Source of the DNA: a virus
Strand: one strand, 5' to 3'
IMG/VR virus record: IMGVR_UViG_3300034358_000032
Span: 1 to 64,000 of that record
Length of the DNA: 64,000 nucleotides
A model generated the notes under the pieces. The model made no database searches, was not told the DNA's origin, and saw nothing but the letters and a program-made list of their open reading frames with translations. The translations under genes were made by a program, and so were the position numbers. This document shows, piece by piece, positions 51,669 through 63,844 of the stretch; positions within the stretch are counted from its first letter, which is position 1, and every line of letters begins with the position of its first letter.

Positions 51669-52132
51669 TACCAGAGCGGGACCTGCTGCGAGAACCAGCG
51701 GCCCCGCGCGCAACCGCGAGCGCAGCCGATCGCGTGCAATGGCTGCGCAACCGCATCCGTCATGTCGCTCGCGATCTGGCGGTACTCGAGGTATTGGCCA
51801 TCTTGCCGCCGGATCGGTCCGGCGAAGAACTGGGCATGATAGCCGACGCCTGGGGCGACAAGATCGGCGCCAATGACGACGTTATCCGCGCGGCCGTGCA
51901 GGCTGAGCGGGAAATCTCCGGCCAGGTAGCGGGCCGTCTCGTAGACCAGTTGCAGCGGACCGTGTTTGCGCTCGGTCGCGAGCACGCACCTGGACCGGAG
52001 ATTATGGCAGCGGCGGAGTCACTGTGTGAGCGACTGGCGGTGTTCGTGCCCGCCAAGCTGCTCCTCCGCCGCTGCCAGATGATAGCCAACCGCGCGTCCG
52101 CGCCCGCATCGCGGAGGCGTCGCTTTGGTTGA
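51665..52132 (+). CDS. Hypothetical helical protein
   Basis: A 155-residue Ala/Arg/Leu-rich helical protein with ATGA overlap upstream. Its end overlaps the next start (TTG at 52125) by eight bases, so it is co-translated with the ATPase. No domain recognised; a helicase-loading or DNA-binding role would fit the position but is not supported by motif. Confidence 0.55.
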   Translation: MIPERDLLREPAAPRATASAADRVQWLRNRIRHVARDLAVLEVLAILPPDRSGEELGMIADAWGDKIGANDDVIRAAVQAEREISGQVAGRLVDQLQRTVFALGREHAPGPEIMAAAESLCERLAVFVPAKLLLRRCQMIANRASAPASRRRRFG

Positions 52133-53372
52133 TACCGGGGATCCGTTTTGGGACGACATGCCGGAGGACATCCGCAAGGGCGGGCATCTGCGGGCAATCG
52201 ATGGCGTCGACACCGAACTGGTGTTCCGCGAGGCGCGGCTCCCTGATCCGACTACGATCCCGCCACGTCCCTGGCTCTACGGCACGCAGCTCCTACGCGG
52301 CTTCGTCTCCGTGCTGGTGGCGCCGGGCGGGGTAGGGAAGACAGGCTACGCAATGGGGGTGGCGTTGGCCCTGGCGTCCGGCCGCCCGATCTTCGGAGAA
52401 AAGATTTTCGTCCGCTGCAACGTCGCGGTGCTGAACCTTGAAGACCCGCTGGATGAACTCGAACGCCGGCTCGCGGCGCTGATGATCCACCACAACATGG
52501 ACCGCGAGGAGATCAAGGGCCGCTACTTCCTCTACTCCGCCGATGACCGCCGCATCACCATTGCCTCCCTGTCTGACGACGGCTCGGACATCGTCCACCC
52601 CGACGAAGCCGCGATGATCCGGGAGATCACCTCGCACAAGATCGGCGTGCTGGTGGTCGATCCATTTGCCGAGAGCCACGCCCTCGACGAGAACAGCAAT
52701 CCGCAGATGATTCGCGCGGCTGCGGCGTGGCGGCGGATCGCGCGCGCGACCGGCTGCGCAATCCTGCTGATCCATCATGTCCGCAAGGGCCTGGTCACCG
52801 ACATCGACAGCGCCAGAGGGGCCAAGGCTTTGACCGACAGCGCCAGGGTCGGCCTGTTGCTGGCACCGATGACGGTCGAAGAAGCCCACGAATTCGATAT
52901 CCGCATGGAGGACAGGACCGGGTTCGTGCGCCTCGATGACGCCAAGGCCAACATGGCCAAGAAGGCCGGCGTCGCGCGCTGGTTCCAGCTTGAGACCATA
53001 GAACTGCGCAACGTCTCGGAGGACTATCCGAACGGCGACCGGGTTGCCGCCATCGCCCGCTGGACCCCGCCATCCGTGATGGGCGAACTGACCACGGCTC
53101 AGTGCTGCGACGCACTGGACGCGATCGACAAAGGCCCGCGCCCCGGCGTCCGCTACACCAACCATTCGTCCGCCAAGGCGGCCAAGCGTTGGGCCGGACA
53201 AGTGCTCATCGAGCTCTACGGCGTCTCCGAGAGTCGGGCGGCCATTATCGTCCTGACGTGGATCAAAAGCGGGGTTCTGGAAGCCCGGCAATACCACGAC
53301 GACGAACAGCGCAAAGAGCGTTCCGGTTTGTTCTCAGTCGCAGCTAAGCGTCCGGGGAATGAGATCCGATGA
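52125..53372 (+). CDS. RepA/DnaB-like AAA_25 ATPase
   Basis: A 415-residue RecA-like helicase or ATPase. TTG start, GGAGG seven bases upstream. Walker A APGGVGKT at 66-73, Walker B GVLVVDP at 174-180 and the finger IHHVRKG at 216-222 are the usual RepA/AAA_25 pattern. The C-terminal 130 residues are a separate alpha-rich part. With the primase at 41326-42588 it is a good candidate for the replicative helicase or its loader. It overlaps the next small gene as ATGA. Confidence 0.82.
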   Translation: MVDTGDPFWDDMPEDIRKGGHLRAIDGVDTELVFREARLPDPTTIPPRPWLYGTQLLRGFVSVLVAPGGVGKTGYAMGVALALASGRPIFGEKIFVRCNVAVLNLEDPLDELERRLAALMIHHNMDREEIKGRYFLYSADDRRITIASLSDDGSDIVHPDEAAMIREITSHKIGVLVVDPFAESHALDENSNPQMIRAAAAWRRIARATGCAILLIHHVRKGLVTDIDSARGAKALTDSARVGLLLAPMTVEEAHEFDIRMEDRTGFVRLDDAKANMAKKAGVARWFQLETIELRNVSEDYPNGDRVAAIARWTPPSVMGELTTAQCCDALDAIDKGPRPGVRYTNHSSAKAAKRWAGQVLIELYGVSESRAAIIVLTWIKSGVLEARQYHDDEQRKERSGLFSVAAKRPGNEIR

Positions 53373-53515
53373 CGTTCCGTGCCGAATGTGCATACCGGCG
53401 CAGAGACGGCCGTTCACACCATAAAAACGCCGAGTATCGGCGCGTAAAGGCGGGTATTTCGGCGCAGAAAATCCGGGTCAAATCGGGCCCTGGCGCATTC
53501 GCAAATGGCCCGTAG
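53369..53515 (+). CDS. Very small basic protein
   Basis: A 48-residue basic protein (ATG at 53369 in an ATGA overlap; TAG at 53513-53515). Rich in Arg, Lys and His (YRRRDGRSHHKN), with the last bases overlapping the start of the next gene. No domain recognised. Coding is supported by the tight coupling on both sides rather than by similarity. Confidence 0.45.
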   Translation: MTFRAECAYRRRDGRSHHKNAEYRRVKAGISAQKIRVKSGPGAFANGP

Positions 53516-54242
53516 CAAGACCGGCGAAGACCTGAATCTGGTGGCGTCGCCCCTCCTGATTTCGATCGGAATCCGCGACCAGCAGGCGCTTGGTTGGATC
53601 AAGGTCAAAGCACCGGTGCTGCTGGCGATTGCGATGCAGCCGTTGCGGGACAGCAAGGCCGAGGCTGCCGCCGAACAGCAGGCGAGGGTGCAGCGAGTCG
53701 GCCGCGATCCGCTCGGCGTGGTTGACCTGGCCGACTACGGCCACTCGATCCGGCAGGTCGCGGTGCTGGACCATCGCGGGGTGACGCTGCGCGGGCCGGA
53801 CGTCGAACTGTCGGAGGCCGCCGACGTCTCCGCGCCCAATCGCTGCGTGCGCCGGGCCCGCCGTTCCGATCCGCTGCTGACCCTCGAACGCACCGGCTGC
53901 ATCTCCTCGCTTCAGCTCGAGGCCGCCGAGCGGCTACGCGACGACATCGAACGCAGCGCCGCCAGCATGCCGGCCGGGACGATGCCGGCGGCCCGCACGC
54001 CGCCGTGGGACAGGACGGGGGTCAGCGAGGCCCAGGTCGGCGCGATGGCTGCCGTCCGCGACGCAATAGCCGAGGTCGATGAGAACGACCGCCTGGCGCT
54101 GCTGTGGATGCTGGCAGGGGGCTCCGTAGCCGGGTTCTCCCGCATAGCCCGCCAGCACCACCAAACCGTCACCAATAGCCTGAGAACCGCCCTGGCGGCT
54201 CTGGTCAGGCATTACCGACTGCACCGATGGAGAGAGACTTGA
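53505..54242 (+). CDS. DUF6456-like HTH protein
   Basis: A 245-residue protein. An N-terminal region (about 1-50) with a helix is followed by PLLTLERTGCISSLQLEAAERLRDD and, at the end, a helix-turn-helix (ALLWMLAGGSVAGFSRIARQ) like the alphaproteobacterial DUF6456 family, which pairs an N-terminal segment with a sigma-like C-terminal HTH. Likely DNA-binding. Its stop overlaps the ParB-like start by TTGA. Its specific role is unknown. Confidence 0.6.
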   Translation: MARSKTGEDLNLVASPLLISIGIRDQQALGWIKVKAPVLLAIAMQPLRDSKAEAAAEQQARVQRVGRDPLGVVDLADYGHSIRQVAVLDHRGVTLRGPDVELSEAADVSAPNRCVRRARRSDPLLTLERTGCISSLQLEAAERLRDDIERSAASMPAGTMPAARTPPWDRTGVSEAQVGAMAAVRDAIAEVDENDRLALLWMLAGGSVAGFSRIARQHHQTVTNSLRTALAALVRHYRLHRWRET

Positions 54243-54865
54243 GCGAGACCAAACGAAAGCCTGCGACACGACCGCGGCTGTCCGACATTTCCATACCGAC
54301 GATCGAGATGGTGGCCGTTGCGGATCTCCGGCCGAACCCCAAGAACCCCAACAAGCATCCCGAGACGCAAATCCAGATGCTAATGGCGTCGCTGCAAAAG
54401 GACGGTCAGACCCGGCCGATTGTCGCCCGGCTCGCCAACAAGTCGATCATCGCCGGACATGGGGTGACGACAGCGGCGCGACGCCTCGGCTGGACCGAGC
54501 TGCGTACCGTGCTGCTGGACGTCGATGCGGAGACCGCCAACCGGCTGATGCTGGCGGACCAAAAGCTGACGACCCTGTCCGAACTGGAACGCGGCCGCGT
54601 CGCCGAACTGATGAGCGAGATCGGGGAAGGGGACTGGTTCTCGACCGGCTATTCGATCGAAGAAGCGGCGAAGGTCCTGCAAGGGTTTTCGGAAAAGGAA
54701 TTGGAAGTCTTCGAAATCGAAACCGCCACGGTGACCGATCTCTACTGGATCACGCTGCGCGGGCCACTGGCGGATCAGGCCATCGTCCTGCAAGCGGTTC
54801 GTAAGCTGGTCAAGGAACGCTTCCCTTCTGCGTCGATTGAACTCGGCACGACGGAGGATCAGTGA
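54239..54865 (+). CDS. ParB-like nuclease-fold protein
   Basis: A 208-residue protein. TTG at 54239 is chosen because it overlaps the previous stop (TTGA) and follows GGAGAG; an ATG at 54227 is an alternative. After a basic leader the ParB core reads LRPNPKNPNKHPETQIQ, SLQKDGQTRPIV, SIIAGHGVTTAARRLG and MLADQKLTT. The C-terminal half lacks the HTH of chromosomal ParB. Phage relatives of this type often accompany DNA methyltransferases; the SAM-binding protein nearby fits that. ATPase or CTPase activity is not inferable from motif alone. Confidence 0.85.
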   Translation: MSETKRKPATRPRLSDISIPTIEMVAVADLRPNPKNPNKHPETQIQMLMASLQKDGQTRPIVARLANKSIIAGHGVTTAARRLGWTELRTVLLDVDAETANRLMLADQKLTTLSELERGRVAELMSEIGEGDWFSTGYSIEEAAKVLQGFSEKELEVFEIETATVTDLYWITLRGPLADQAIVLQAVRKLVKERFPSASIELGTTEDQ

Positions 54866-54866
54866 T

Positions 54867-55133
54867 GTGGCAAGACGGGCTGCGCCGGTCAAACCCGTCG
54901 CGAAACCGACGCCGCACGGAACAGCGGGGGCTGACGACGTCCAAATCTGCTTTGCCTGCATGCGATGGCACCACGGACCGATCCCCTGCGACCATGATGC
55001 AACGCTGCCGTGCTTTACTTGTGGGAAGCCACGAGGTTACCGCTTCTCCGGCCCCACGCGCGAGCTGCTCGGCCGCGCCAACGAGTGCTTCAACTGCTGG
55101 TGGGCTGCGCAGCCGCCCGGCTCAATCCGGTAG
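54867..55133 (+). CDS. Small zinc-binding protein
   Basis: An 88-residue protein. GTG at 54867 is chosen for its position one base after the ParB-like stop and GGAGG nine bases before; the longer frame from 54837 overlaps ParB. Three CxxC pairs: ICFACMRW, PCFTCGKP and CFNCWW, suggesting two zinc sites. No specific family recognised. It may bind nucleic acid or join a complex with the neighbouring ParB and methyltransferase-like proteins. Confidence 0.6.
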   Translation: MARRAAPVKPVAKPTPHGTAGADDVQICFACMRWHHGPIPCDHDATLPCFTCGKPRGYRFSGPTRELLGRANECFNCWWAAQPPGSIR

Positions 55134-55137
55134 GAAC

Positions 55138-55419
55138 ATGGCAGACACACCACGTCTCTGCGACCACTGCGGCTACCTGATGACCGTCAACCACGCGGTT
55201 GACCCGGAGGCGAGGCCTCCCGGGGACGGCGACATCTCGGTCTGCGGCGGGTGCGGCTATCCGTACAGGCGGAACGCCGGGGCATGGGAGGCGATGACGC
55301 TTACCCACCTGCTGACGCTGAGCAGTGCCGAGCTGCACGAAATCGTGGAACTGCGCCTCATCGTCCTGAACTGGCGAGAGACCCAACCGGTGCCTGAGCC
55401 AAAAGGGAAACCGTCATGA
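55138..55419 (+). CDS. Zinc-ribbon protein
   Basis: A 93-residue protein. ATG at 55138 follows TAGGA. CDHCGYLM (CxxC) and VCGGCGYPY (CxxC) make a four-Cys zinc ribbon in the N-terminal half; the C-terminal half is helical. It resembles small phage zinc-ribbon proteins of unknown role. It overlaps the next gene by ATGA. Confidence 0.65.
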   Translation: MADTPRLCDHCGYLMTVNHAVDPEARPPGDGDISVCGGCGYPYRRNAGAWEAMTLTHLLTLSSAELHEIVELRLIVLNWRETQPVPEPKGKPS

Positions 55420-55562
55420 TAGTCACTCTCGGGATCGGCTTTGTCCTGGGCTACTGCTGGAGCGTGGCCCTGGACAACATGGAGGACGGCGGGGTTCTGG
55501 TCTTTATCATGCTGGCGTCGATCGGCGTGCTGGCGCTGATCTTCCTGTGGTCGGCGCAGTAG
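55416..55562 (+). CDS. Two-segment small membrane protein
   Basis: A 48-residue protein too short to be picked up easily. Two hydrophobic segments (about 2-18 and 27-45) with a charged turn (DNMEDGG) in between, so both ends probably face the same side. It is coupled to the zinc ribbon (ATGA) and to the methyltransferase-like gene two bases downstream. Role unknown, possibly membrane anchoring of the neighbouring complex. Confidence 0.6.
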   Translation: MIVTLGIGFVLGYCWSVALDNMEDGGVLVFIMLASIGVLALIFLWSAQ

Positions 55563-55563
55563 C

Positions 55564-56190
55564 ATGGACATCTCCGGCGACCTGCTGCGTTACGGGAAAA
55601 CCGACAACTCCCCGGCGGCGAACACGGCAAAGATACGGATCCGCGAAAACGTCCTGCAGATGCTCGGCGAGCAGCAAAGCCATGTGTTCGATGCCTTTGC
55701 GGGCGAAGGCACGATGTATCGCGGGGTCTGGAACCGGGCTGCTTCCTATATCGGGTGCGATAAGGGCGAGTTCGACGACGGCCGGCTCGCTTTCGCAAAG
55801 CTGGACACCCATCGCGTGCTTCGCGCCGTCGATCTGAGCCGGTGGAACCTGTTCGACATCGATCACCACGGTTCGCCCTGGGAAGCGGCCTACATCATCG
55901 CCCGACGCCGGCCGAGGCTTGAGCCGGGCGAGCTGCTCGGGGTCATCCTGACCGAAGGCACCGGGCTTAAGATGAACATGGGCGGGGTATCGAAAGCTCT
56001 CGCGACCATGGCGAAGATCCGCGTGCAGATGCCCGGGATGGGCGCCGCGCGCGGGGAGATCATCGACCGGGCGTTGATCGAATTGGGGCGCATGATGAAC
56101 GGGGAGATTGTCAAACGGTGGCAGGCTAACAGCGGCAAGGGGTCGCGCGTCGCGTATATCGGCCTGGTTTTCAAAGGTATTGGCTCATGA
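55564..56190 (+). CDS. SAM-dependent methyltransferase-like protein
   Basis: A 208-residue protein. HVFDAFAGEGTMYRGVW (about 41-57) is a class I SAM-binding motif I (D.f.G.G). IGCDKGEFD (about 62-70) would be motif II, and FDIDHHGSPWEAAY (about 96-109) occupies the catalytic motif position, resembling the DPFGSP of Trm1-type rather than DPPY of amino-methyltransferases. No target-recognition domain is visible. It could methylate DNA or RNA; next to a ParB-like protein a DNA target is the better guess. Confidence 0.65.
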   Translation: MDISGDLLRYGKTDNSPAANTAKIRIRENVLQMLGEQQSHVFDAFAGEGTMYRGVWNRAASYIGCDKGEFDDGRLAFAKLDTHRVLRAVDLSRWNLFDIDHHGSPWEAAYIIARRRPRLEPGELLGVILTEGTGLKMNMGGVSKALATMAKIRVQMPGMGAARGEIIDRALIELGRMMNGEIVKRWQANSGKGSRVAYIGLVFKGIGS

Positions 56191-56630
56191 GTAGCGCGGC
56201 AACCGTTGTGCGGGAATTCGAGACGCTGGCGAACTCGCCCGCGATGACGATGGCAGTCACCGCCTGGCGTGATCTGCTGATCGCAAACCACATGGACAGC
56301 GACCAGTTCCCGGTCGGCTGGGACCATCGGGCGCTCATCGCCTTTCGGGAGGAAAAAGCGATCGGCTTCCTGACATGGTCCGACCTGGCGTGGTCCAACA
56401 CGCTCCACGTCGTGCTGGCCTATGTCGTGCCCGCGTGCCGCCGTCAGCACGTCCATACGCTGATGTTCGGCGAGCTGGTGCGCCGAGCGCAGGAGTTGCA
56501 GCGGCCGGTCATCACCGGCGGGACGAGCATCTACAACAAGGCGATGCGTGCGACCTTCGCCGCTCAAGGCCGACAGGAAACCGCGGTGATGACGCGCTTT
56601 GTGGTGCCTAAGCCGGGAGCCCGACCGTGA
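56187..56630 (+). CDS. GNAT-fold acetyltransferase-like protein
   Basis: A 147-residue protein with the GNAT layout: HRALIAFREEKAIGFLTWSD (strands 2-4), HVVLAYVVPACRRQHVHTLM (motif A; here the acetyl-CoA loop Q/RxxGxG/A is replaced by RRQHVHT, so binding is uncertain), and a typical alpha4 with NKAMRATFAAQG. Overlaps its neighbours by ATGA and GTGA. It could modify a protein, a small molecule or, as the phage Mu Mom protein (also GNAT-like), DNA. The last is a speculation prompted by the methyltransferase and ParB neighbours. Confidence 0.65.
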   Translation: MSSAATVVREFETLANSPAMTMAVTAWRDLLIANHMDSDQFPVGWDHRALIAFREEKAIGFLTWSDLAWSNTLHVVLAYVVPACRRQHVHTLMFGELVRRAQELQRPVITGGTSIYNKAMRATFAAQGRQETAVMTRFVVPKPGARP

Positions 56631-57136
56631 GCAAAATGCCGTGGATTGACGATCCGGTCACGACGCCGCCCAGCCTGACGGGGCACTCGCGGGCATGGCG
56701 GGTTGACCTTGCGAAGATCAAGGCGTCCGGCCTCACGGTCGACAACGGGTGCGTGGCGTGCTGGCTGGTCGAGGCCCCTTGGGCGCATCCGATCTGGCAC
56801 AGCTATCGGATTTCGGTGGCCCACCTGCACCCGCTCGCCCGGGTGCCTGATCCGGTGATTTACCGGCCGGGGGCGACGCACGAAATGGTCGTCCTGGCGC
56901 TGGATCCGAGGGCGCCACGACAGCCCTTGCTCGATCGCGGCGAGGGGGAGCCGCTGTTCCCGGTGAACTTCGCAGCACAGATGATCGAAACCAATGACGC
57001 AACGGCTGCGCTAAAAGTTGAACGGGCAGTCGAAATGATAGTGGCTGGTCGCCTCAGTCCTGATACTGACTTTTTGAGCCATTGGAGCGCCCTTTTTGGC
57101 GACGACATGATGCTCGATCGGAGACTGAAACAGTGA
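56627..57136 (+). CDS. Hypothetical protein
   Basis: A 169-residue protein with a GTG start (GTGA overlap). Core strands such as CVACWLVEAP and HSYRISVAHLHPLA with Trp and His-rich patches; no known domain. It follows the GNAT protein and belongs to the same operon. Possible partner or substrate protein of unknown function. Confidence 0.55.
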   Translation: MSKMPWIDDPVTTPPSLTGHSRAWRVDLAKIKASGLTVDNGCVACWLVEAPWAHPIWHSYRISVAHLHPLARVPDPVIYRPGATHEMVVLALDPRAPRQPLLDRGEGEPLFPVNFAAQMIETNDATAALKVERAVEMIVAGRLSPDTDFLSHWSALFGDDMMLDRRLKQ

Positions 57137-57474
57137 ACATGATCGAACCGAAAGACATCGGGCGACCGGTGATTTATCGGAGCCACGGCGGCGACAAGAA
57201 CGAAGCAGGGATCATCTGCGGACTGAACAGTGCGGTAATCTTCGTCAGGTATGCAGGGCGCCAGCATTTGGAGGCGACCTATCCGCGAGACCTGGAATTT
57301 ATCCAGCCCGCGACGTTGTGCAGCGGCGGCTCGGCTGAGCAGAAGGCACGGCACTTCTACGACCAGGTGCTGGCGAAGACGTCGCTTGACCCCTCGCAAA
57401 TCTCAAACGCGATTGATCAGGACTGGACTGCGTATCTGCCTCTGGTGGTGGATGCGATGCCAGTAGCGGCCTAA
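57133..57474 (+). CDS. Hypothetical protein
   Basis: A 113-residue protein with a GTG start (GTGA overlap). The first half (KDIGRPVIYRSHGGDKNEAGIICG, with IFVRYAG following) looks like a small SH3-like or tail-associated barrel; the rest is helical. Similar small proteins occur in many phage early regions. No function assigned. Confidence 0.55.
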   Translation: MNMIEPKDIGRPVIYRSHGGDKNEAGIICGLNSAVIFVRYAGRQHLEATYPRDLEFIQPATLCSGGSAEQKARHFYDQVLAKTSLDPSQISNAIDQDWTAYLPLVVDAMPVAA

Positions 57475-57926: not shown

Positions 57927-58165
57927 GGCTCGTATTCCACAAAGAAAATCTCACCGGTCGTGGTGTTGGCAGCGTATTTCCGGCCTTCCGGCAGGCCGTG
58001 CTCGATAGCCGCCTCTCGGACCCGGTGATGCGGCAGCGTCTTGTCGATGATCGTTATCCCGGTCTCGAGGTTGACGGTGAACGTTGGGTTCTTAGCGGCA
58101 TCCTTGATGCGCGTGGCCTGCTCGGGCGTCAGGCGCTTGCCCGTGTCGGTTAACTTGGGTGTCAC
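57923..58165 (-). CDS. Small hypothetical protein
   Basis: An 80-residue protein starting MTPKLTDTGKRLTPEQATR. A helix is followed by a small beta sheet (TFTVNLETGITIID). Overlaps both neighbours by four bases. No family recognised. Confidence 0.55.
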   Translation of the reverse strand: MTPKLTDTGKRLTPEQATRIKDAAKNPTFTVNLETGITIIDKTLPHHRVREAAIEHGLPEGRKYAANTTTGEIFFVEYEP

Positions 58166-58794
58166 TGCGACATCTCCACCCGAACGGCCTTCTGCATGAT
58201 GGCGCGTTCCTGATCCGTGCGGGCAACCACCTGGCCGTCACGCACCTCGTGCCATTTCCCATCTTCGGACATAGCCGGCGGGAACACCGTCATGGCCCGG
58301 CGGCTGCTCCAGCGGACGATCGTGGCGTAGCCGTGCTTCTCGCCCATCATCGCCATGAACTCGCGCAGCTTCGGATCTTTGTGCGCGTCGGGAAATGCCG
58401 GATCGACCCATACCTGGATGACGTCGATCTTTTGCGTGCCGCGCTCGCCCGTTATCGTGACGTAGTCAACCTCCATGTCGATCACGTAGTGGACGCGATC
58501 CGGTCGCTGCAAGCCGGCGGCTTCGGGATCAGATAACCAGCGGCATGCCCAGGTCTTGCAGGCGTTTGGCCGCCGCGGATAGATCGTGCATCCACGCCCG
58601 GCGCTCGAATGCTTGCACTTCTGCCCGGCGGCCTTGTTCAGCGGGAACACCGGCACCGGTAAGAGCTTGCAGCACAAGGTGCACGTTCCGCAGACACGGC
58701 CCGTTCCCTTATCGTCGAACGTCACTGTAAATCCGCCGTCGGCATCCGTGGTAATCTTCATGCGGTCGCCCGCCAGTTCGAATGACGGGGTCAT
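58162..58794 (-). CDS. YkgJ-family cysteine cluster protein
   Basis: A 210-residue protein. Cys at CGTCTLCCKLL and later KCKHSS, RGCTIYPRRPNACKTWACRW form the classic YkgJ set (CxxCxxCC ... C ... C.iY..RP..C). The family is thought to bind zinc or an Fe-S cluster; its biochemical role is not settled. The C-terminal half is a beta-rich domain. Phage copies are known but their function is unknown. ATGA overlaps on both sides. Confidence 0.85.
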   Translation of the reverse strand: MTPSFELAGDRMKITTDADGGFTVTFDDKGTGRVCGTCTLCCKLLPVPVFPLNKAAGQKCKHSSAGRGCTIYPRRPNACKTWACRWLSDPEAAGLQRPDRVHYVIDMEVDYVTITGERGTQKIDVIQVWVDPAFPDAHKDPKLREFMAMMGEKHGYATIVRWSSRRAMTVFPPAMSEDGKWHEVRDGQVVARTDQERAIMQKAVRVEMSQ

Positions 58795-60454: not shown

Positions 60455-61324
60455 TCACATCAGCGGCGGTTGAGCCAGCAGAAGGTGCTCCGGCATCGGC
60501 ACCGGATCACGCGGCCCCGCCCGTAGCGCCTCCCATAGCCACGGGTTGGCATCCAGCCGCAGCCGCGCCGCGTCGGTCGCCTCGGCCTCCAAGTGGTGCA
60601 GGCGCATCATCGGCACCCGCTTGCCCTTGCGGTCGTGGACGGTCTGCTCGGCCCGAACTCTGAGCACATACCGCAGCGCATCCACCGGGCTCGCGTGATC
60701 CGGCATGATGCCGTCCGGCACATCGATCCGCGGCTCGGCACCGATCCACATCAGCCGCGGATCAATGGCTTCCAGAAAGGCCTCGTCGGCAAATACCCCG
60801 CGCCAAACGCCGAGAACCGGGATGAAGCCGAACCACAGCAGGAAAGCGCCGGGGCGCGACCAGGACGGCACCGTCCCCAACTCGGCCCTCAACTCCGCGA
60901 TCAGATACTCCCTCGGGTTGCGGTATTTGCGCTCAACCTCCTCCTCGACCTCGTTCGGATCAGGTTCGGGCGCTTCGGGATCGACAACCGGCGTCGGGTT
61001 GAGCAGCCGTTCCACGATGTCGATCAGCGGCTCCAACCGCTGCTTGCGCAGCTTCCACAGCGGCGAATCGTAGTAGGGCCTGCCCATTGAGACGCGATCC
61101 CGCCGGGGCTTGTTCAGTAGCTCATCGATCTCGTCGCAGACCTGACTTATGGCGATCACACAAGAGGCCAGATCGACCGGCAAAGCAGGCTTTTCGGGCT
61201 CCGCGGGAACGCTGACCACATCAGCAGGTTTGCCCGATTTGGCCCTCGGTTTGCCGGGCGGTTTGCCCTTGCTGAGCGGCTTGCCCTTCCAGACCGGGGC
61301 GGTCTTGATTGCACGTTTAGCCAT
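60455..61324 (-). CDS. Hypothetical phage protein
   Basis: A 289-residue protein. The start at 61324 (MAKRAIKTAP) has GGAGAGA upstream. A Lys/Pro-rich basic tail (1-40) leads into a helical domain, with several Trp/Tyr (YYDSPLWKLRKQ, FLLWFGFIPVLGVW) and a Pro/Glu-rich linker near 115-130. No family recognised. It may bind DNA or RNA through its tail. Confidence 0.6.
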   Translation of the reverse strand: MAKRAIKTAPVWKGKPLSKGKPPGKPRAKSGKPADVVSVPAEPEKPALPVDLASCVIAISQVCDEIDELLNKPRRDRVSMGRPYYDSPLWKLRKQRLEPLIDIVERLLNPTPVVDPEAPEPDPNEVEEEVERKYRNPREYLIAELRAELGTVPSWSRPGAFLLWFGFIPVLGVWRGVFADEAFLEAIDPRLMWIGAEPRIDVPDGIMPDHASPVDALRYVLRVRAEQTVHDRKGKRVPMMRLHHLEAEATDAARLRLDANPWLWEALRAGPRDPVPMPEHLLLAQPPLM

Positions 61325-61423: not shown

Positions 61424-62308
61424 TCAGAGCAGGCCTGTCGGGTTCATCGCCGCCTTGATGTGCTCGAAGGCCTCCGGCAGTTCCCGGAAAATGCTCTTGT
61501 CGATGGTCGCCCCGCCCTTCTCGTCCGGCAGCAGTTCCCATCCATTTTCCACCAACCAGGCGAACTTGCCCTTTACGCCATAGTGGTGCGGGGCTTGGTC
61601 GAGGTTGGGGTGACTGCCGATCGTGCCGTGCTGCTTGAGCCAGACCGCGGACCCCACCATGGCGGCGGCCTCGAGCGCGCCGACCAGCGCATGCCGCGAC
61701 ATCCGCCGGGCGCGCGGGCCGCTCTCCCCGCCGATGATCACCCAATTCATGTCGGTGAAGTTCAGCTTGTCCGAAGTGCCGATCAGCGGCTCGGCACTGA
61801 CAAAGAACGTCCCTGCCCCGACCCGCTGCTTGACCGTGCGCCAGATGTCCAACCGCTTGGCAACCTCGTCTCCCTCGACGGTCACCCCGACCCAGATATG
61901 CCGCGGAATGCCTAAGCCGCCGTAGCGTTGCACCAGCAGCTTGCGCGCCCGCACCGGCCGCTTCGTCAGGATCTGGAACACGATGGTCGGGTGCTCCTCC
62001 ATCACGTCCAGGCACCGGAAAATCACGTCATCGGGGATAGCGTCATGCCAAAAGTCGGACAGGGAATTGACGAAGACCATGTGCGGCCGCAACCCCCTCT
62101 CCGTTCTCATCGGCTTGAATTTCCTAATATCCGCGAGCCGTTCGAGCCGCAGGCGCACCTCGTCAAACTTCTGGCGAAATGTCGCGGGCCGCAGGTTGAC
62201 CAGCGTTTCCGCGTAGCAATTATCGCAGCCAGCCGAGACCTTGGTGCAGCCGATGGCGAGCCCCCATGTCGAATCACACCAACTGATATTCGAACCTATG
62301 TTCGTCAC
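61424..62308 (-). CDS. Gp37/Gp68 family protein (DUF5131)
   Basis: A 294-residue protein. GTG at 62308 (AAGGAG five bases upstream) gives the typical short N-terminus; a longer frame from 62407 is rejected. The motif GCTKVSAGCDNCYAE has Cys21, Cys28 and Cys31 (CxxxxxxCxxC), the mark of the phage Gp37/Gp68 family, related to radical SAM proteins. Further family blocks are FVNSLSDFWHDAIP, QILTKRP, WVGVTVEGDE and IIGGESGP. Its reaction is not established. Phage copies are frequent; a role in DNA or RNA modification has been suggested by context only. Confidence 0.85.
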   Translation of the reverse strand: MTNIGSNISWCDSTWGLAIGCTKVSAGCDNCYAETLVNLRPATFRQKFDEVRLRLERLADIRKFKPMRTERGLRPHMVFVNSLSDFWHDAIPDDVIFRCLDVMEEHPTIVFQILTKRPVRARKLLVQRYGGLGIPRHIWVGVTVEGDEVAKRLDIWRTVKQRVGAGTFFVSAEPLIGTSDKLNFTDMNWVIIGGESGPRARRMSRHALVGALEAAAMVGSAVWLKQHGTIGSHPNLDQAPHHYGVKGKFAWLVENGWELLPDEKGGATIDKSIFRELPEAFEHIKAAMNPTGLL

Positions 62309-62423
62309 GTCGACTCCTTCTTTGAACTCCGCCCCGCTATAGTCCACAGCGTCCCATGAGGGATCGCCGCGCGCAGCGGTGCGTAATGCCTGTTCCTCGG
62401 CAGACACCGGGCATTGCGAGGTG

Positions 62424-62776: not shown

Positions 62777-63844
62777 TTAGTGAACAGTGCTCGGGCTATC
62801 CGTCCCGGCCGGCATCGGCAACTCCTCGGCCTCCGGAGCCTCGATCTGCGGAGCCGCCGGAGCCTCGATCTTGACCGTCGGGGTCCGCCCGATCAGGTCA
62901 TCGACCCTGGCTTTGAACCCTGCAGCTTTGGCGAGCGCGATTGCCTTCTCGCCCTCGTCCGTGCTGGCCTCCGCCCGGTCCAGCCAGCGGGTTTCATGAG
63001 CCCGCAGCGCCGCAACCGTCAGCTTGACGGCCGGGGCGAGCACCGGCTGCGTCTCCTTGTCGATCGGGAGATACCCGGCCGGAATGGGTTGCAACAGCAG
63101 CAGCGCACCCGGCCATTGCGGGAAGTCGAACACCTTCAGCGAGTGCTCGGAGCCAGTGAAGGCCCGGATCACCATGCCCTCTTTCGGCCGGCGATCCTTG
63201 GGCAAGCCCGCCTCGAGCAGCTTGGCGATGTCCCCGCAGTATTTCAGCGACTTGCTGCTAAACCCCACGGCTTGCCAGTCGCGGCCGGAGGCCTCGCCGT
63301 CCATGTCCATGTTCGTAAAGGACGCCGCGGTCAGCAGGTGCTCGTATGGGGGAAACCGTCCCACATGCACGGTAGCCGCCTTCATGGTCGCCGACTTGCT
63401 GGTGTCCGACAGCTCGGCGCCCATGGTGCCCTTGGCATGGGTGACATTGACGATCAGCGCCCCCTCGACCTTGGCCAGCATGCCAACCCGGGCCTTCAGG
63501 TCGTCCCGGTGCAGCATCAGCCCCGAGGCCAGCCAGCTAGGCGTGGTGCCGGAGATCGGGAATGAGCCGATGAACACCCTTCCCGCGTCCCGGGCAATGA
63601 TCCGCGCCTTGCCCTGGTCCACCTGGTGCAGCACCACGCCGTGCAGCCGGTCTTCTTCCTTCGGGGCCTTGGCCGCCACGCTTTCGGCCGCCAGCAGCAG
63701 CGCCGCCGGCACGGCCAGGGTTTCCATGATTGTCGCTTTGGGGGTCTTGGCCTTGGCCGGGACCTTGCTGCGCTTGGCCGAGGTATCTTGCAGCAAAGCC
63801 TTTGCGGCGGGCTTCCGCCCTGCCGCTTGCGTTCGTTTAGCCAT
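62777..63844 (-). CDS. Possible sliding-clamp-like protein
   Basis: A 355-residue protein. The start at 63844 follows GGAGAG. Lys/Ala-rich N-terminal tail (about 1-40), then alternating strand/helix blocks such as RIIARDAGRVFIGSFPISGT, LIVNVTHAKGTMGAE, AVGFSSKSLKYCGDIAKLLE and VFDFPQWPGALLLLQPI. The last resembles the closing block of the DnaN-type clamp (...W.G...lm.m). The C-terminal 80 residues are Ala/Glu/Pro-rich. This would provide a phage processivity factor, but the similarity is weak by eye and needs a profile search. Confidence 0.4.
   Translation of the reverse strand: MAKRTQAAGRKPAAKALLQDTSAKRSKVPAKAKTPKATIMETLAVPAALLLAAESVAAKAPKEEDRLHGVVLHQVDQGKARIIARDAGRVFIGSFPISGTTPSWLASGLMLHRDDLKARVGMLAKVEGALIVNVTHAKGTMGAELSDTSKSATMKAATVHVGRFPPYEHLLTAASFTNMDMDGEASGRDWQAVGFSSKSLKYCGDIAKLLEAGLPKDRRPKEGMVIRAFTGSEHSLKVFDFPQWPGALLLLQPIPAGYLPIDKETQPVLAPAVKLTVAALRAHETRWLDRAEASTDEGEKAIALAKAAGFKARVDDLIGRTPTVKIEAPAAPQIEAPEAEELPMPAGTDSPSTVH

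Follow-up and report, generated by a model that had tools for sequence, protein, structure and literature searches.

The stretch of viral DNA analyzed here, to which we refer as the window, covers 64,000 nucleotides of the 69,580-base IMG/VR record IMGVR_UViG_3300034358_000032. A first-pass annotation had proposed that six coupled genes at positions 54239-56630 form a modification system of DNA or RNA, possibly linked to the membrane. These genes were taken to encode a ParB-like protein, two zinc-binding proteins (Zn1 and Zn2), a 48-residue membrane protein with two hydrophobic segments, an S-adenosylmethionine (SAM)-binding protein with a Trm1-like catalytic motif, and a GNAT-fold protein. 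All six open reading frames (ORFs) are present and translationally coupled. The coupling, however, continues on both sides, with 53505-54242 upstream, and 56627-57136 and 57133-57474 downstream, also overlapping their neighbors, and the limits of the cluster are therefore arbitrary. Comparison with related loci shows that the ParB-like protein and the methyltransferase in nearly all cases co-occur with one of two interchangeable partners, a DUF5131 protein or a radical-SAM enzyme that resembles spore photoproduct lyase (SPL). This partner, the most informative component, lies outside the six-gene cluster (Table 1).

The methyltransferase family and its ParB-like partner

Taken alone, the window methyltransferase (motif I DAFAGEG, motif IV FDIDHHGSPWE) has no match in Pfam, PHROG or NCBIfam, none among INPHARED phages at E≤0.01, and only chance-level matches among phages and plasmids at E≤10. 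The single-sequence method found none in the viral_contigs set; in the PDB, the single protein has no match by sequence, and a profile yields weak motif I matches only. The family was found by scanning viral_contigs with motifs I and IV written as degenerate DNA patterns, which matched 52 and 75 contigs, respectively, many contigs containing both at the same spacing. Open frames at these matches confirm a single methyltransferase family, which is carried by 107 loci (83 nonredundant, referred to by L numbers), nearly all of them phage, including 11 loci from GTDB genomes. It should be noted that the loci were drawn from pattern scans, and thus are not a random sample, that many contigs are fragments, and that the co-occurrence statistics given below are uncorrected for relatedness.

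In the alignment of 51 family members, R27, D43, G47, G49, D98, D100, G103 and P105 are invariant, and the window protein keeps every one of these residues. The methyltransferases retrieved through the radical-SAM search described below are much more diverse (score 23 upward) but retain K23, R27, G47, G49, D98, D100, P105 and Y198, and most begin with K-x-D/N-N. For the window protein, the AlphaFold2 model has a predicted local distance difference test (pLDDT) score of 93 and a predicted template modeling (TM) score of 0.89. With this model, Foldseek ranked the Trm1 entries 3axs, 2dul and 2ejt first (E about 1e-6, TM 0.56-0.58), other class I methyltransferases following close behind with similar E-values. 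Six of the 51 family members weakly match TIGR00308 (TRM1; best E=5.6e-4), and six weakly match PF02005 (best E=0.003-0.0045), the protein of Dulem virus 36 reaching 17.2 bits versus a cut-off of 27. The Trm1-like motif noticed in the first pass, a motif IV of the DxDPFGSP type, is thus real; since the TRM1 matches are weak and other class I folds rank so close, we describe the protein, on the basis of its predicted fold and sequence motifs, as a compact Trm1-like class I SAM enzyme and not as a Trm1. A subfamily with the motif IV variant GCPWEQ (L014, L017, L024, L025, L036, L064, L067 and L075) has both ParB and the methyltransferase.

The ParB-like gene starts with TTG at 54239, with an alternative ATG at 54227. 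Its assignment holds: the product matches Pfam ParB_N (PF02195) just above the gathering score (E=5.3e-6, 26.8 versus 26.3 bits) and phrog_620 with E=2.5e-27. Among the ParB proteins of the related loci, overall identity to the window protein is 26-57%; the N-terminal domain is diverged, and the C-terminal tail is strongly kept, with the consensus V.EI.T..V.D.FWISVRGPL..QA.ALQRL...M...P.V.VELGT. The link with the methyltransferase is very strong. Upstream sequence of at least 1.5 kb is available for 60 nonredundant loci, and 55 of these have a same-strand ParB-like gene within 1.5 kb upstream of the methyltransferase. When viral_contigs was scanned with the tail pattern alone, the methyltransferase was present in 57 of the 59 loci retrieved. 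The two exceptions are L321, which breaks off about 130 bases downstream of ParB, and L310, which belongs to the same contig as L068, with the methyltransferase about 7 kb away, outside the flank taken. In 15 loci, a cold-shock-domain gene is located between ParB and the methyltransferase (for example, L053:6368-6583, L104:5740-5964 and L103:5237-5458).

Box II of the window ParB reads GHGVTTA, such that V replaces the R of the GxxRxxA nucleotide-binding box, as in the rest of its clade. Among 68 aligned module ParBs, 41 keep the arginine; the other 27, among them the window clade, have V, T, I, L or M in its place. Replacement of this arginine abolished nucleoside triphosphate (NTP) binding in tested ParB-fold proteins (PMC12704722), which suggests that NTP binding may be lost or changed in module ParBs that carry the replacement.

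Exchange of DUF5131 with a radical-SAM partner

Two more families came to light when neighboring genes were clustered, DUF5131 (PF07505) and a radical-SAM protein with NPYRGCGHGCAYCYVP; genes of both are usually convergent with the methyltransferase. The radical-SAM protein is similar to PA0069 (3.7e-20) and to radical SAM mobile pair B (7.8e-13), with scores below the model cut-offs. The DUF5131 protein of the window matches PF07505 with E=1e-53 (182.8 bits versus a gathering score of 28.9), and TIGR04471, the radical SAM mobile pair A, with E=8e-13, below the model cut-off. In the DUF5131 alignment, C41 and C44 are invariant and C34 is nearly so, with the spacing Cx6Cx2C as against the CxxxCxxC-like motif, set in a partial TIM barrel, of radical-SAM enzymes. 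The AlphaFold2 model of the window protein has a pLDDT of 92.7, and its five best PDB matches are to SPL, a radical-SAM enzyme that acts on DNA. The predicted resemblance in fold is modest (E 5e-4 to 6e-3, TM about 0.4), and later matches are mostly to other TIM-barrel proteins, including lipoyl synthase and NifB. A profile alignment of DUF5131 with the SPL-like family spans 202 columns, in which the Cys motif and later motifs are aligned (E=4.7e-4, probability 32%).

Fifty loci have at least 4 kb of sequence downstream of the methyltransferase; within this distance, 37 of them encode DUF5131 (21 loci) or the radical-SAM protein (16 loci), and none encodes both. On the upstream side, one of the two was found in 1 of 37 loci (Fisher p=3e-12). 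When 47 long phage records with the methyltransferase were searched as a whole, 25 had one DUF5131, 17 had one radical-SAM protein, five had neither and none had both; this zero overlap corresponds to a hypergeometric p of about 1e-8 under the assumption of independent records, which holds only in part. Mapped onto the methyltransferase tree, the partner type requires 10 changes, at least four of them forced by supported branches. Co-occurrence, as well as interchange of DUF5131 with the SPL-like enzyme, is thereby shown.

A search with the radical-SAM family alone yielded 79 loci (65 nonredundant, some on contigs already in the set), with the methyltransferase in 40 and ParB in 47 of the 65, mostly adjacent and convergent. 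In Dulem virus 36, the genes for ParB, the methyltransferase (annotated as hypothetical) and a radical-SAM protein of the PA0069 family follow one another in the same direction. The association of these three genes persists through changes of order, strand and phage type. DUF5131 itself was considered as a module-specific family and rejected as such: ParB or this methyltransferase is present in only 8 of the 79 phage loci found by DUF5131 alone (L198-L276). In 34 of these 79 loci (about 43%), the neighbor of DUF5131 is the methyltransferase TcmP (TIGR04474); for example, in Gordonia phage Angelique (L115:3980-5832), DUF5131 and TcmP are convergent with overlapping ends.

In the nearest relatives of the window (L096, L031, L058 and L023), the gene order is DUF6456-like, ParB, optional genes and methyltransferase. 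On its downstream side, the opposite strand encodes g71 and DUF5131 in L096, L031, L058 and L032, with g74 also in L096 and L031; in L023, DUF5131 is present further away. The window has the same gene set and, therefore, belongs to the DUF5131 version.

Several other genes surround these components. An AAA_25 ATPase gene (E=1.2e-41), in the same direction and upstream of the cluster (52125-53372, plus strand), is probably part of the replication region. The gene at 58162-58794 (minus strand) encodes a Cys-rich stretch (CGTCTLCCKLLPVP) that by eye resembles zinc/iron-chelating YkgJ-type proteins. For g74, a phage relative (L105:9399-10424) has a match to the beta sliding clamp of DNA polymerase III (PF02767, 7.7e-9), and g74 is perhaps a diverged phage clamp.

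Table 1. Positions of the module components and of adjacent genes in the window
Feature	Position	Strand	Evidence or remark
ParB-like protein, 208 aa, ParB/Srx-fold N-domain and module-specific C-terminal tail	54239..54865	+	Pfam ParB_N, phrog_620
ParB-like C-terminal tail	54701..54850	+	Alignment and viral_contigs pattern scan
ParB box II	54461-54484	+	GHGVTTA
Compact Trm1-like class I SAM methyltransferase (predicted), 208 aa	55564..56190	+	Alignment of 51, AlphaFold2, Foldseek
SAM-binding motif I of methyltransferase, DAFAGEG	55690..55710	+	Alignment of 51
Motif IV of methyltransferase, DIDHHGSPW (family consensus DLDAYGSPW; Trm1 type)	55855..55881	+	Alignments
DUF5131 (Gp37/Gp68, three-Cys-motif) radical-SAM-like protein	61424..62347	-	PF07505, AlphaFold2
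DUF5131 Cys motif, CTKVSAGCDNC (C34, C41, C44; presumed [4Fe-4S] ligands)	62216..62248	-	Sequence, alignment
Zn1, small CxxC-rich protein, accessory	54867..55133	+	One relative (L023)
Zn2, small protein with two CxxC pairs, accessory	55138..55419	+	No relative in module loci
48-aa hydrophobic two-segment protein, accessory	55416..55562	+	Segments read from sequence; no relative in module loci
GNAT-fold protein, accessory	56187..56630	+	Acetyltransf_1; no relative in module loci
DUF6456-like protein upstream of ParB	53505..54242	+	Kept in the four closest relatives with upstream side covered
g71, DUF5131 neighbor in close relatives	60455..61324	-	Neighbor clustering
g74, DUF5131 neighbor	62777..63844	-	Relative L105 matches DNA polymerase III beta clamp

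Substrate, known systems and alternative explanations

We are highly confident that these genes constitute a real functional module. What we propose, at about even confidence, is a phage module of three components, a ParB-like protein with a dedicated tail, a Trm1-like methyltransferase and one putative radical-SAM enzyme, here DUF5131, that would modify nucleic acid, most likely the DNA of the phage. By analogy, the substrate is probably a nucleic acid, given the Trm1-like fold, the fusions of ParB-fold domains with DNA methyltransferases in phages, and the action of SPL on DNA; that it would be DNA in particular is an evenly balanced call. The methyltransferase lacks a recognition domain, and the ParB-like protein may bring the enzyme to its target via the conserved tail. 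The methyltransferase would then modify a base, at an exocyclic amine if it works as Trm1 does, the radical-SAM enzyme would work on that base or on the product of methylation, and the resulting modification might protect against host nucleases. ParB-fold proteins of phages are often fused to DNA methyltransferases (PMC12704722); the survey that reports this covers such fusions and does not mention radical SAM. The fusions (phrog_498; PF02195 with PF01555) are similar to the module in coupling a ParB-fold N-domain to a methyltransferase, whereas the module has separate genes, a methyltransferase of the Trm1-like and not of the N6/N4 type, and a ParB with a tail of its own.

Several observations weigh against this proposal: (i) Trm1 itself acts on tRNA, and the cold-shock-domain genes inside the module could point to RNA; (ii) the window ParB is devoid of the box II arginine that NTP binding requires in tested homologs (PMC12704722); (iii) N82 and Q108, both nearly invariant in the methyltransferase family, are T and A, respectively, in the window protein; (iv) for the marine-type GCPWEQ subfamily, neither DUF5131 nor an SPL-like protein was found in the locus stretches or in the three long records searched (G043-G045); and (v) the DUF5131 gene of the window is on the strand opposite to the methyltransferase, at a distance of 5.2 kb, so that its membership is inferred from the relatives.

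The same three genes might instead act on RNA, i.e., tRNA, rRNA or mRNA of the host or the phage, in which case a guanine amine would be methylated, the radical-SAM enzyme would modify it further, and ParB or cold-shock proteins would present the RNA. The best structural matches of the methyltransferase, indeed, are to Trm1, a tRNA (guanine-N2) methyltransferase (TIGR00308, PF02005) that shares with it the fold, motif I and the DxDxxGSP motif IV; the weak matches to TRM1 and PF02005 and the cold-shock-domain genes in 15 loci point the same way. Conversely, the phage enzyme has 208 residues compared to 365-387 in Trm1 chains and is devoid of the Trm1 C-terminal domain, the ParB-fold partners and SPL-type enzymes point to DNA, and there is no tRNA gene in the window. 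The family also differs from Trm1 in matching its model with 5.6e-4 at best and in being phage-borne, with ParB and radical-SAM partners. We consider an RNA substrate unlikely.

Slightly less likely still is a module for defense or superinfection exclusion, equivalent to PDC-M30/M41 of PADLOC, which would mark self and attack or exclude competing phages. The closest known system is, in fact, the DUF5131-TcmP pair (TIGR04474; PADLOC candidates PDC-M30/PDC-M41), known as a candidate defense pair, where DUF5131 also stands beside a SAM methyltransferase; TIGR04474 is the three-Cys-motif partner (TcmP), with a motif IV of the DPYG type. The DUF5131 protein of the window matches PDC-M41B (1.2e-51) and PDC-M30B (1.9e-50), and TcmP, its usual partner, matches PDC-M30A/M41A. 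However, the PDC systems are candidates only, no conserved nuclease or toxin effector was found in the module, and in several groups the module is located beside the terminase genes of the phage. Compared to the DUF5131-TcmP pair, the module has a smaller, Trm1-like methyltransferase and an added ParB, and its DUF5131 can be swapped for the SPL/PA0069-like radical-SAM enzyme. The methyltransferase has no match to TIGR04474, PDC-M30A or PDC-M41A, and there is no TcmP in the methyltransferase loci. We considered homology of the methyltransferase to TcmP and do not claim it, the profile match being weak and confined to the surroundings of motif IV (E=0.0014, probability 17%). Another comparison is with the radical SAM mobile pair, of which DUF5131 resembles member A (TIGR04471) and the SPL-like enzyme member B (TIGR04470); these two form a pair by family name, whereas here the two types are mutually exclusive and score far below the equivalog cut-offs.

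It is very improbable that all six genes make up one modification system, perhaps membrane linked and with a Mom-like GNAT, as the first-pass annotation had it. The ORFs are tightly coupled, and ParB-acetyltransferase fusions exist in bacteria (PMC12704722), but the six genes do not co-occur as a set, and the idea is thereby largely refuted. Beyond chance, ParB and the methyltransferase alone associate: across about 270 loci, a search at E≤0.01 recovered no relative of Zn2, of the membrane protein or of GNAT, and a single relative of Zn1, which L023 carries along with a relative of the downstream gene 56627-57136. In L058, ParB ends 2 bases before the start of the methyltransferase; in L096, two unrelated genes lie between the two. 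The gene set expected in other phages was recovered for ParB and the methyltransferase and not for the remainder, and nucleic acid modification stays the best guess, with the six genes as its unit left unsupported. The CxxC pairs of Zn1 and Zn2 can be seen, with no family match above cut-off for either; the 48-residue protein, read from the sequence as two hydrophobic segments, is present, has no family match, and, having no relative in the loci, lends no support to a membrane link. The GNAT assignment is borderline (Acetyltransf_1, E=4e-4, 21.0 bits versus a cut-off of 20.7); the protein is 26-27% identical to proteins of three other phages and has no match in the PDB. Mom of phage Mu, like this protein, has a phage-borne GNAT fold, and the analogy was rejected: the two show no sequence similarity (blastp E=2.3), and GNAT is not conserved with the module. 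With hardly any relatives in module loci, the four accessory genes, for Zn1, Zn2, GNAT and the membrane protein, are therefore variable cargo of the same operon.

That the co-occurrence reflects nothing but the conserved gene order of one phage lineage is equally improbable: many loci share a neighborhood upstream of the terminase genes and, therefore, are not independent, but unlike radical-SAM families are present strictly one at a time and are repeatedly exchanged, and the association persists where the operon has another gene order and where the methyltransferase is very diverged.

We return, then, to a three-component module that would modify phage DNA. The combination of ParB, methyltransferase and radical-SAM enzyme, with exchange of radical-SAM types, appears to be undescribed, whereas ParB-methyltransferase fusions in phages are already known; the first pass had supposed an undescribed system for its own cluster. 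The literature searchable here, without most subscription journals and all preprints, contains no mention of DUF5131, PF07505, TIGR04470/71/74 or the radical SAM mobile pair; TcmP is mentioned in two papers, in one of them as an entry of a table.

DUF5131 is a large unexplained family of phage proteins, its partner TcmP is likewise unexplained, and no function for either was found in the literature searched. The presence of one of two partners and the repeated swap with SPL-like enzymes suggest of what kind DUF5131 is, namely, radical-SAM chemistry beside a methyltransferase. A more specific and tentative possibility, which we consider rather doubtful, is hypermodification of phage DNA: guided by ParB, the Trm1-like methyltransferase would build a new modified base together with one or the other of the interchangeable SPL-type radical-SAM enzymes, and this would be the first function for DUF5131. 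Prophage-like regions of Bradyrhizobium lablabi SZCCT0422, B. oropedii Pear76 and B. elkanii WSM2783 (loci L103, L104 and L108) carry the module, which is therefore testable, and the module supplies a short list of genes whose loss would be expected to eliminate a modification. Should the substrate be DNA, the module would represent a new way of modifying the DNA of phages and a candidate system of anti-restriction.

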